This document shows positions 52,030 to 62,152 of a DNA stretch of 64,000 nt, one piece after another (within the stretch, counting starts at the first letter, position 1; each line of letters opens with the position of its first letter). Source of the stretch: Pseudomonas sp. B21-015 (GTDB taxonomy: Bacteria; Pseudomonadota; Gammaproteobacteria; Pseudomonadales; Pseudomonadaceae); the NCBI RefSeq assembly GCF_024749285.1, contig NZ_CP087196.1:3968001-4032000 (forward strand). Direction: 5' to 3'. The notes below the pieces were generated by a model. The model did no database searches and was not told the DNA's origin. It was given only the letters and a program-made list of their open reading frames with translations. A program made the position numbers and the translations under genes.

Positions 52030-52105
52030 TCCGCGATAGCTCAGTTGGTAGAGCAAGTGACTGTTAATCACTGGGTCCCTGGTTCGAGTCCAGGTCGTGG
52101 AGCCA
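52030..52105 (+). tRNA. tRNA-Asn (GTT), integration target of the island
   Basis: The 76-nt gene runs from TCCGCGA to TCGTGGAGCCA. The anticodon loop CTGTTAA gives GTT. Its 3' end is repeated imperfectly at 62129-62152, so it is the attachment gene of the downstream island. An intact tRNA is retained. Confidence 0.97.
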
Positions 52106-52109
52106 GACA
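52083..52109. repeat. attL of the tRNA-Asn island
   Basis: TTCGAGTCCAGGTCGTG is followed by GAG and CCAGACA. The first 17 and last 7 bases recur at 62129-62152, where the middle three are missing. Confidence 0.8.
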
Positions 52110-52149
52110 AGGTTCCAGAGAAGGCTTTCAAAATCTCTGAAACCCCCGA

Positions 52150-52174
52150 AAACCCGCCTTCTGGCGGGTTTTTT
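52150..52174 (+). terminator. terminator downstream of tRNA-Asn
   Basis: The perfect 8-bp stem AACCCGCC / GGCGGGTT has a TTCT loop and is followed by TTTT. Confidence 0.9.
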
Positions 52175-52266
52175 CGTTTTGGCGTTCTGTCGGATTCCGG
52201 TAAGTACCAGCCATTTTAAGGGTAGAGTTTGGGATAAAGGTCAGTTCGATAAAAGGGAGTACCCTT

Positions 52267-53586
52267 ATGTCGCGCACTACTGCTCCACTCTCCGACGCCG
52301 CTTGCCGTTCGGCCAAGCCCACAGACCGCGCCTACAAGCTTTTCGACGGCGACGGCCTTTACCTTCTAGTCCAACCCAATGGCCGCAAAGGCTGGCGTCT
52401 CAGATACGTCAAACCTGATGGCCGGGAAGGACTGACCTCATTCGGCAACTACCCCATCGTTGGCCTCGCGAATGCGCGCCGCAAGCGCTTGGAGGTCAAG
52501 CGAATGCTGGCGGATGGCATTGACCCTATAGGAGCCAAGAACCAAGCCAAGACGGACGCTCTGATCAAAGGCCGCACCTTTGAAAGCGTTGCCCTCGGCT
52601 GGCACACGGAAATGTCAGCCAAGTGGGCACCGGACTATTCCAAGACAGTGATGAGTCGCCTCAAAACTCACCTCTTCCCGCTGATCGGCGCCCGCGCCAT
52701 TGTCGACCTTGATACCCACGACCTTATGCGGCCCCTGGACGCGATTAAGAAGCGCGGAACGATAGACATTGCTTTAAGGGTACAAAACTACCTGCAGAGC
52801 ATCATGCGCGAGGCAAAGCGCCTCCGGCTTATCACCGTAAACCCTGCTTACGACCTCGTAGGCTCGATCAAAGCCCCGCGGGTCGTCCACCGCCCCGCCT
52901 TATCCTTATCGCGCTTGCCTGAATTGCAGGAACGGATCGACACCTATAAAGGCCGCGCACTTACCCGGCTGACGGTCTTGCTGTCGCTGCACGTGTTTGT
53001 ACGCTCCAGCGAGCTGCGCCTCGCCCGCTGGAGCGAGTTCGACCTCAAACGTGGCGTCTGGGAAATACCCGACACGCGACCAGCGTTGGAAGGCGTACCC
53101 TTTTCCACAAGGGGTACGAAGATGGCAGGCGATATCCATCTTGTACCCTTATCGCCGCAAGCGATCGCCCTGCTCGAGCAGATCCACGCAATCACAGGCA
53201 AATTTGACTTGGTGTTCGCAGGCGATACCAAGTCTTGGAAACCAATGTCCGAAAACACTGTGAACAGCGCGCTTCGGAAGATGGGGTACGACACCAAATC
53301 CGAGATCTGTGGGCATGGGTTTCGTTCGATGGCCTGCAGCGCACTGATCGAGTCAGGTTTGTGGACGGACACAGCCATCGAGCGGCAGATGAGCCACAAG
53401 GAACGCAACAACGTCCGCGCCGCTTACATCCACAAGGCCGAGTTCATCGAGGAGCGCAGGCTGATTATGAACTGGTGGAGTCGCTACCTTGAGGCCAATC
53501 AGCAGAAGCATGTCAGCCCACGCGAATTCGCCAATCAGACGGGTGCGAATGTCACTCGCCTAAAAGCAAAACGTGGCGCAACTTAG
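52267..53586 (+). CDS. P4-type tyrosine integrase
   Basis: The 439-residue protein has an N-terminal DUF4102 arm-binding domain at about 10-95 (LFDGDGLYLLVQPNGRKGWR, FGNYPIVGLANARRKRLE). A SAM-like core-binding domain spans about 105-205. The tyrosine recombinase catalytic domain has Arg in RSSELRLARW near 244, GHGFRSMACS (HxxR) near 347 and Tyr in AAYIHKAEF near 388. It integrates and excises islands at tRNA genes. GGGAG is the likely ribosome site. The gene starts 162 bases after the tRNA-Asn 3' end, the usual position and orientation for an island integrase. Confidence 0.96.
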   Translation: MSRTTAPLSDAACRSAKPTDRAYKLFDGDGLYLLVQPNGRKGWRLRYVKPDGREGLTSFGNYPIVGLANARRKRLEVKRMLADGIDPIGAKNQAKTDALIKGRTFESVALGWHTEMSAKWAPDYSKTVMSRLKTHLFPLIGARAIVDLDTHDLMRPLDAIKKRGTIDIALRVQNYLQSIMREAKRLRLITVNPAYDLVGSIKAPRVVHRPALSLSRLPELQERIDTYKGRALTRLTVLLSLHVFVRSSELRLARWSEFDLKRGVWEIPDTRPALEGVPFSTRGTKMAGDIHLVPLSPQAIALLEQIHAITGKFDLVFAGDTKSWKPMSENTVNSALRKMGYDTKSEICGHGFRSMACSALIESGLWTDTAIERQMSHKERNNVRAAYIHKAEFIEERRLIMNWWSRYLEANQQKHVSPREFANQTGANVTRLKAKRGAT

Positions 53587-53630
53587 TAAGCGCTCGGTCC
53601 TCATATCTCAGTGATCCGCTTGTCCACGCG

Positions 53631-53675
53631 GGTCCATCCAAACAGGGCTGCAAAGCCGCCCTGTTTGGATGGACC
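53631..53675. terminator. 17-bp perfect hairpin after the integrase gene
   Basis: GGTCCATCCAAACAGGG at 53631-53647 pairs exactly with 53659-53675 around an 11-base loop. No T tract follows, so it may block transcription in both directions rather than act as a classic terminator. Confidence 0.6.
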
Positions 53676-60838: not shown

Positions 60839-60891
60839 GTGTTCGTTCCTCTTCGGATGGACCGGGCGTTTGGCCCGGAAGAGAAACAAGA

Positions 60892-60909
60892 CTACCAACT
60901 AGTAGGTTG
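60892..60909. promoter_or_regulatory. candidate TetR operator before osmC
   Basis: CTACCAACTAGTAGGTTG is a dyad around ACTAGT. It matches the site at 54904 in 14 of 18 positions, including CTACCAACT. It lies 54 bases from the osmC start, a suitable place for repression. Confidence 0.55.
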
Positions 60910-61238
60910 TCGATCAAGAAATTATTCTTCTTAAAACCAACCACCGAAAAAAAACAGCTTAAACAGCGTTTTTTTCCTGAATAGGGATAACTGCGATAAC
61001 AATGCAGTGATTGCTACTTAATCTTGTACTTTTGGTCACACACCGAAAGTGTAGGCATGGGTAGGTATCCGCAACCCAAACGCGAGACTAGACGTACGTT
61101 CGTCAGATTGAGTGCGCGCAAAAAGAACTCAGAGAGTGTGAGCTAAGCGGCTGAAACCACTTACGAGGCGGGAAAACGGACCGAGCCAGCAGTGGCAGAA
61201 TCGGTCGTTTTATGACGCAGAAAAAAGCTGATCGAACC
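60910..61238. other. gene-free stretch between osmC and the second TetR gene
   Basis: No coding sequence with a ribosome site was seen on either strand. Base composition is mixed and AT-rich near 60930-60990. It presumably holds the osmC promoter. Confidence 0.4.
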
Positions 61239-61814
61239 TCAGTGATGCGTTTCGGTAACCCGAAGTCCATCTAAAATGAAATCAAATCCAGAAGACTGTT
61301 CGTAATTGTCGTTCAGCGCCCAAGATACAAAGCTGCCACCTTCCAACGTATTCAAGATGAACCTGGCAACCTTCACGCCGTCCAGCTCAGCTTTGAGTTC
61401 CCCTGCCGCTTGGCCCAGTGCGATATTGGCCTGAAGCCAATTGAGATGGATTTCGAAAAAGTCCCGCGTCATTTCCTTTAGGCTTTCAGGCAAAGCCAGC
61501 AACTCCGCCGCCAAGGCGCCGCAGAGCGGAAGCATCGCGTTTTTACTGCTTTGCGCGAACATCAAGGCGAAGGCATTGAGCCGATCGATAATGCCGGTAT
61601 TTTCATCATTGATGCATTCCAGCTGATTCTTGAACCGGAACAGATAACTCTCAACGATGGCAATCGCCAGACTTTCTTTGGTGGGAAAGTGGTGGTGAAT
61701 ACTCGCCTTCTTGATACCGATGTCTTCCGCCAGATCGGCATAGCTGAAGGCTGCGTAGCCCTTGGTACGCAACAGAATCTCAGCGCTGGTCAGGAGGTCG
61801 GAACGTGTACTCAT
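61239..61814 (-). CDS. TetR-family regulator of the island (second paralogue)
   Basis: The 191-residue protein is a clear paralogue of the one at 58723, with nearly the same HTH (YAAFSYADLAEDIGIKKASI, HHHFPTKESLAIAI) and a similar C-terminal layout. PLCGALAAELLALPESLKEM keeps the same single Cys. It is the last gene before the right end of the island. It may sense the same electrophile or cover a different set of operators. An inverted repeat overlaps its start codon. Confidence 0.9.
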   Translation of the reverse strand: MSTRSDLLTSAEILLRTKGYAAFSYADLAEDIGIKKASIHHHFPTKESLAIAIVESYLFRFKNQLECINDENTGIIDRLNAFALMFAQSSKNAMLPLCGALAAELLALPESLKEMTRDFFEIHLNWLQANIALGQAAGELKAELDGVKVARFILNTLEGGSFVSWALNDNYEQSSGFDFILDGLRVTETHH

Positions 61815-61848
61815 GATGCCGTTTCCAAATTTATCAATGCGGCATCAT
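61813..61848. promoter_or_regulatory. inverted repeat covering the TetR start
   Basis: ATGATGCCG at 61813-61821 and CGGCATCAT at 61840-61848 form a 9-bp perfect stem with an 18-base loop. It spans the ATG of the TetR gene, so it could hide the ribosome site or form an autoregulatory operator. Confidence 0.4.
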
Positions 61849-62128
61849 AAATTAGTACTTCTTCATAAGACAGCGCTCAGGTTGCGCACCTATGAACCAC
61901 CCTCTGGAATCGGCCACAAGCAGTCAGCCGTTTCTCAGCTCGGCATTCTCCTCAGTGAAATAGGCCTAACGTTAGGCTGCTAACTTTCTACTGTTGCCGT
62001 TGCCGTTGCCGTGCTCATGAGGTACTGAAAGAACTCGCATAAAATACTGTCTTGATTAGGATAATCGTAGGGATAGAGACTTTAGAAATCCGCATTAATT
62101 TATTGTAAAACAGGTACTTAATTTTGCA
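61849..62128. other. non-coding end of the island
   Basis: No gene is seen. It contains a 14-bp perfect palindrome (GCCTAACGTTAGGC, 61964-61977) and three tandem copies of TTGCCG (61994-62011). Confidence 0.4.
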
Positions 62129-62152
62129 TTCGAGTCCAGGTCGTGCCAGACA
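62129..62152. repeat. attR of the tRNA-Asn island
   Basis: TTCGAGTCCAGGTCGTG followed directly by CCAGACA repeats the 3' end of tRNA-Asn and the bases beyond it, with a 3-base deletion relative to attL. It marks the right island boundary. Confidence 0.8.

Follow-up and report, generated by a model that had tools for sequence, protein, structure and literature searches.

Resistance to allicin is conferred by clones of Pseudomonas fluorescens PfAR-1 carrying a ten-gene cluster that this strain possesses in three copies (RE1–RE3); among the transposon mutants of these clones the effect was largest for ahpD, followed by dsbA and trx and then by kefC and oye, whereas insertions in kefF and downstream of 4-ot were without visible effect (PMC7119367). 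In Pantoea ananatis, the plasmid-borne alt cluster comprises the TetR-type regulator AltR, in which Cys100, the sole cysteine conserved between the Pantoea and Pseudomonas AltR proteins, is essential for sensing and whose AltR/IR2 box has the consensus YWAYCWAC N6 GTWGRTWR (PMC13178969, PMC12306174). The subject of the present analysis is a stretch of 64,000 nucleotides of Pseudomonas sp. B21-015 (positions 3,968,001 to 4,032,000 of contig NZ_CP087196.1, hereafter the window), in which a 10-kb integrative element located at a tRNA-Asn gene probably carries a functional allicin/thiosulfinate-tolerance cluster of the alt/PfAR-1 type, a reading to which we assign a probability of about 0.8. Its basis is the sequence, namely the anatomy of the element, homology, att sites, a lesion shared with relatives, conserved boxes and purifying selection; allicin resistance and sensing by AltR have been demonstrated by others in relatives and, by analogy, activity of the cluster in the window host and binding of the boxes by its TetR proteins would be expected.

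The core genes of the window have the same order and orientation as those of PfAR-1 RE1–RE3, with ahpD, oye and 4ot on the plus strand converging on tetR2-osmC-sdr-tetR1-dsbA-trx on the minus strand, and the identity to the PfAR-1 copy L025 amounts to 100% for ahpD, 93% for sdr, 91% for osmC, 90% for oye and 80% for dsbA. Since the PfAR-1 cluster gives allicin resistance, this agreement identifies the window element, on comparative grounds, as a member of the known island type, in a Kef-less form residing on a tRNA-Asn element; the first-pass annotation of this DNA had proposed the same type and a gene list, from an ahpD-like gene to two TetR genes, with which the Pfam matches agree (Table 1). 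The differences concern the kef genes, retained as kefF and kefC in all three PfAR-1 copies whereas the window is without KefFC, and the genomic setting, the PfAR-1 copies being located in islands of 79–98 kb (PMC7119367), a paper whose main text never uses the words integrase, recombinase or mobile. With the Pantoea alt cluster the window shares the key TetR cysteine at position 100, the CTAC N6 GTAG operator core and an overlapping set of enzymes (PMC13178969), whereas the gene order of the former is different (PMC12306174) and the latter has two TetR genes.

The loci used for comparison were collected by a DsbA scan of one genome per species, which gave 79 loci (the best 80 of 89 candidates being kept). 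Thirty-five of them (L009–L043) are Pseudomonas loci with a dsbA identity of at least 64%; the set includes the PfAR-1 copies (L025, L036 and L038), two copies from P. salomonii (L020 and L028) and three pairs of identical or nearly identical loci (L016/L017, L022/L023 and L032/L033). Within the genus, 22 of 398 genomes, including that of strain B21-015, encode a DsbA homologue, a figure that counts DsbA alone and not the full cluster. In the plasmid collection DsbA matches were found in 589 records (15 from Pantoea; all <60% identity). These plasmid relatives are mostly from Klebsiella (277), Enterobacter (97) and Escherichia (95), and 341 of the 589 records are predicted to be conjugative.

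The boundaries of the element are marked by a 17-bp att core, TTCGAGTCCAGGTCGTG, the two copies of which (52083–52099 and 62129–62145) are 10,046 bp apart and are the only exact copies in the 6.59-Mb genome. The island has a G+C content of 54.9% vs 59.9% in the adjoining 10 kb on its left, and in the relative G021 (L188) the aspartate aminotransferase gene, the tRNA-Asn gene and the uracil-permease gene follow one another without the element, thereby representing an empty site. Thus, an integrase beside a tRNA gene, a direct repeat and an empty site in a relative are all found, as in a tRNA-targeting P4-type integrative element. The intact integrase right after tRNA-Asn and the repeat of the tRNA 3′ end about 10 kb away had been noticed at first pass, and both are upheld by the ARAGORN call, the three Pfam domains of the integrase and the repeat search. 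The integrase has a dN/dS of 0.11–0.19 with respect to three relatives, and no transfer genes were found among the element proteins scanned with Pfam. The exact right att core is present in the window, L009, L010 and L012. The right flank (~62163–62320, before the permease gene) partly matches, on both strands, a short dispersed repeat that is also found in some relatives and for which a 361-base query gave 39 matches in the genome of the strain itself (G000).

The intact kefF and kefC that belong to the PfAR-1 ten-gene set are not found in the window; indeed, as had been reported, the pair is broken, kefF being interrupted and kefC reduced to residues 522–597 of 608. The same kefC endpoint recurs in L009, L010, L012, L034 and L179 (genome G305), as well as in L189, apparently the same record as L034, and an 892-bp region of the window is 97–99% identical to the first five of these. 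The lesion, being common to relatives, is therefore older than the window genome, and the comparison indicates that KefFC was lost in an ancestor of the window element. In L011 kefF is missing and the loss of kefC is larger (533-bp gap). Overall, kefFC is broken or absent in 14 of the 35 loci L009–L043 and both genes are near full length in the other 21, one of which (L019) has its kefC in two overlapping pieces.

The history of gene loss was examined by loss-only counting on a 38-tip tree made from six concatenated proteins, with gene states set by hand and dsbA, by which the loci had been fetched, present by selection. Unknown states were assigned to ahpD and oye of L037 (contig end) and to kefFC, 4ot, sdr and trx of L044. 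A gene split into two overlapping pieces, perhaps by a frame break or a draft error, was scored as present; this applied to kefC in L019, osmC in L027, sdr in L034 and dsbA in L039. The count amounts to four losses for kefFC, six for tetR1, three for 4-ot and one each for oye and sdr, with none for ahpD, trx and osmC. Support is 100 for the clades L014/L016/L017 and L040/L041/L043 and for the union of L015 with the window's group; it is 58–97 for the position of L030 and for the branches within the window's group, so that the tetR1 count is softer. Furthermore, L015 keeps kefC residues 334–599 and no kefF, whereas the window keeps kefF remains but no kefC before residue 522; the two deletions being different, the kefFC losses are at least five. 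The order of the losses roughly parallels the published transposon phenotypes with the exception of kefC, which mattered there, a correlation that does not constitute a test. Since kefC (N = 2) is far less frequent than altC (N = 38) among representative clusters (PMC12306174), it is not a defining gene of alt clusters in the wider sense. KefFC would appear to be dispensable. The host chromosome encodes KefC homologues of 43%, 34% and 29% identity; the vicinity (1.5 kb) of the first two contains no match to KefF at E values up to 1. In L013 the place of 4ot-kefF-kefC is occupied by an unrelated gene cassette (L013:11089-14540, strain GV085) consisting of regulator, aldolase-like, dihydrodipicolinate-synthase-like and amidotransferase-like genes, all named by eye.

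Inverted repeats resembling the AltR/IR2 box, missing from the first-pass inventory, precede both ahpD and osmC in the window. Among the loci compared, the 350 bp preceding osmC contain CTAC N6 GTAG in 33 of 36 cases, compared with 77 of 3800 random 350-mers, and those preceding ahpD contain CTACCAACT, on one strand or the other, in 34 of 37, while neither pattern was found before tetR2 (33 loci), tetR1 (26), sdr (32), trx (35), 4ot (30) or dsbA (35). When upstream regions of 150 bp were scored for matches to the 16 specified positions of the Pantoea consensus, a score of at least 13 was reached by all ahpD (36/36) and osmC (37/37) regions, window included, vs 7/180 and 7/185 shuffles, and by none of those of tetR2 (0/34), tetR1 (0/27), sdr (0/33) and trx (0/36). 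The box columns are conserved at 98% (ahpD) and 95% (osmC), compared with 61% and 60% in the remainder of the 150 bp (32 and 33 distinct rows, respectively). Scans for sigma-70 promoters (3 vs a shuffle mean of 4.5) and terminators (6 vs 9.3) gave no excess.

Cys100 of TetR1 and Cys98 of TetR2 both lie in an LCGALAAE setting, and the sensor-type cysteine is retained in all tetR1 (27/27) and tetR2 (34/34) copies scored, the former count being read from alignment rows, as a regular expression gave 1/27 on account of gaps at a four-residue duplication of the window protein. None of the 26 other scored copies has this duplication, which immediately follows the sensor cysteine. The window thus possesses TetR proteins with a conserved sensor cysteine and, as far as sequence can tell, AltR-box-like operators. 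No mention of such boxes in Pseudomonas clusters was found in the available part of PMC13178969 or among the papers listed first by a literature search; the AltR/IR2-like boxes ahead of both operons in the clusters examined and the sensor-type cysteine in both TetR proteins would therefore appear to be new.

How far do these data permit other interpretations? The element had initially been described as decaying, and a relic whose function is gone would be in keeping with the destruction of kefF-kefC and with the truncation of a companion integrase (see below). However, the kefC endpoint is old and shared by L009, L010, L012, L034 and L179, the nine non-Kef cargo genes are all open, the operator-like boxes are conserved and, in the wider comparison, the nine genes appear to be mostly under purifying selection, with dN/dS values of 0.00–0.13 vs L018 and L025 (tetR2 vs L025 being not computable), so that decay is not supported and a functionless relic is very improbable. 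A second alternative sees in the element a general oxidative or electrophile tolerance island, directed at peroxides, quinones and N-ethylmaleimide and without a particular link to thiosulfinates: the OYE, OsmC, SDR and AhpD families have diverse oxidants as their targets, and the record titles of the related loci carry no isolation source linking them to Allium. Yet no increase in tolerance of H2O2, cumene hydroperoxide or N-ethylmaleimide could be detected with the PfAR-1 core region (PMC7119367), and the response of Pantoea AltR to thiosulfinates does not extend to N-ethylmaleimide, diamide, H2O2 or disulfides (PMC13178969), which makes this alternative unlikely. For the same reason, of the “organosulfur/electrophile tolerance” attributed to the element at first, the organosulfur half fits better, the electrophile half being overstated.

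A further possibility, compatible with a functional tolerance cluster, is that selection came from thiosulfinates of Brassica or other organosulfur chemistry and not from Allium. The three reduced clusters (L040, L041 and L043) belong to records named P. thivervalensis, P. brassicacearum and P. kilonensis, species with a root ecology, whereas the strains from which the PfAR-1 and P. salomonii copies derive are associated with garlic. Dimethyl thiosulfinate, described as a product of both Allium and Brassica, is likewise sensed by AltR (PMC13178969), so that the Allium host expected at first pass is not required; this origin of the selection is a real possibility, if somewhat less than an even one.

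The reading as a functional thiosulfinate-tolerance cluster has, on the other hand, to be set against several observations. A kefC insertion in PfAR-1 clone 1 raised the sensitivity to allicin (PMC7119367), and a Kef-less cluster may thus be weaker than a Kef-bearing one. As for the boxes, scores of at least 13/16 are also found before dsbA (17/36), oye (2/33) and 4ot (4/31), some loci have their optimal register displaced by 4 bp, and the top ahpD score of L016 and L017 falls at a different position, with the usual box still present; moreover, the loci being related and some of them identical or nearly so, conservation of the boxes is not independent evidence. Genome-wide, the box pattern with one mismatch yields 5 sites and a reversed control likewise 5, the consensus alone being unspecific, and a wider regulon is therefore not claimed. 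The dS values exceed 1 for several genes vs L025, and the dN/dS values inside the close clade are noisy (0 to 0.71), that of trx vs L034 being undefined (dS zero). Finally, the exact right att core was not found in L011, L034 and L179.

If the functional reading is correct, modification of their conserved cysteine by thiosulfinates would release the TetR repressors from the inverted-repeat operators that precede ahpD and osmC; expression of both convergent operons would then yield the CXXC proteins AhpD, DsbA/FrnE and Trx together with OYE, SDR and OsmC, by which S-thioallylated thiols would be cleared. Acidification of the cytoplasm would be the task of the KefFC arm, and this arm would be the dispensable part lost in the ancestor. 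Taken together, the data can be tentatively accommodated, at somewhat less than even odds, by a joint scheme in which a single AltR-type regulon with paired, genus-crossing operators controls two convergent operons that travel as swappable cargo of a two-integrase tRNA-Asn/Thr shuttle, KefFC (with tetR1) being repeatedly shed and AhpD, Trx and OsmC kept.

The vehicle itself can be recognized from its sister elements. Homology to those with other cargo stops near 54779, and a companion integrase, likewise overlooked at first pass, is cut in the window after residue 83, the tolerance cluster replacing its 3′ part. Nine of the 30 integrase loci (own included) are ≥95% identical and all nine are at tRNA-Asn; the remaining 21, with ≤91% identity, are at tRNA-Thr in 20 cases and without a tRNA found in one. 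The companion integrase is next in 23 of the 30 short integrase loci. Other cargo in the sister tRNA-Asn elements consists of unclassified open frames in L180, L181, L184 and L185. That of another sister element (L182:7409-9781) is a TOTE conflict-system primase-helicase. In G305 (L179) the same island lies at tRNA-Asn with different neighbours, which suggests movement of the element, and in L030 (strain EK007-RG4) the cluster is inverted beside tRNA-Asn and an integrase remnant, probably through an independent capture. L013 had been considered a capture with a different integrase (57% match) and was rejected as such, its DNA being that of the same element with the integrase mostly gone. At L009:140 and L013:16535 a right-end-like core is joined directly to the left arm of a family member, an arrangement suggestive of tandem islands. 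The genome of strain B21-015 also contains a second integrase of the family (G000:C1:6173964-6177171; 65% identity), the companion integrase of which is uninterrupted.

Among described islands, I23, I44 and I55 of Pseudomonas resemble the window family in having an RNA-gene site, direct repeats, a tyrosine integrase, variable cargo and no recognised transfer genes; unlike it, they use tmRNA and carry alpA and predicted phage-defence genes (PMC12595487), the site of the window's family being tRNA-Asn or tRNA-Thr, often with a second, PF12835-type integrase. Among the papers listed first by literature searches, none was found by title or abstract that pairs an allicin cluster with a tRNA-Asn or PF12835 island, supplements and subscription journals lying outside the scope of these searches. 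A family of two-integrase elements at tRNA-Asn or tRNA-Thr with varied cargo would appear to be a new vehicle.

Table 1. Features of the tRNA-Asn element (positions in the window)
Feature	Position	Strand	Remarks
tRNA-Asn(GTT)	52030..52105	+	Target of integration; ARAGORN; attL core 52083-52099
P4-type tyrosine integrase	52267..53586	+	Frame open; Pfam Arm-DNA-bind_3, Phage_int_M, Phage_integrase
Companion-integrase remnant	54500..54748	+	Residues 1-83; tblastn, blastn; L182 relative is PF12835 Integrase_1
AltR/IR2-like inverted-repeat box before ahpD	54904..54925	+	15/16 consensus positions; 72 bp ahead of start codon
ahpD, carboxymuconolactone-decarboxylase family	54976..55308	+	Pfam CMD; CDGC motif; 100% identical to a PfAR-1 copy
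oye, Old Yellow Enzyme	55353..56459	+	Pfam Oxidored_FMN; 90% to PfAR-1
4ot, 4-oxalocrotonate tautomerase-like	56508..56726	+	Pfam Tautomerase
kefF remnant	56818..57200	+	Pfam Flavodoxin_2 piece; not covered by any single frame
kefC remnant	57309..57536	+	Only C-terminal residues 522-597 of 608 (PfAR-1 protein as reference)
trx, thioredoxin	57608..57946	-	Pfam Thioredoxin; CKPC
dsbA/frnE-like oxidoreductase	58001..58699	-	Pfam DSBA; CPWC
tetR1, AltR-like repressor	58723..59307	-	Pfam TetR; Cys100
sdr, short-chain dehydrogenase	59412..60185	-	Pfam SDR
osmC family protein	60284..60841	-	Pfam OsmC
AltR-box-like inverted repeat before osmC	60888..60909	-	CTAC N6 GTAG at 60892-60905; 13/16 positions; ~68 bp ahead of osmC
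tetR2, second TetR	61239..61814	-	Pfam TetR; Cys98 in same motif
attR core	62129..62145	+	17-bp copy of tRNA-Asn 3′ end; repeat search

Should the joint scheme be correct, the irreducible core of allicin tolerance would be thiol repair and not acidification of the cytoplasm. The window element represents a natural, compact, Kef-less version of the ten-gene cluster, in which the parts needed for thiosulfinate tolerance could be tested by removal of individual genes. The paired boxes constitute a direct prediction of AltR-type binding beyond Pantoea, and the element offers a simple vehicle by which tolerance clusters may pass between pseudomonads.

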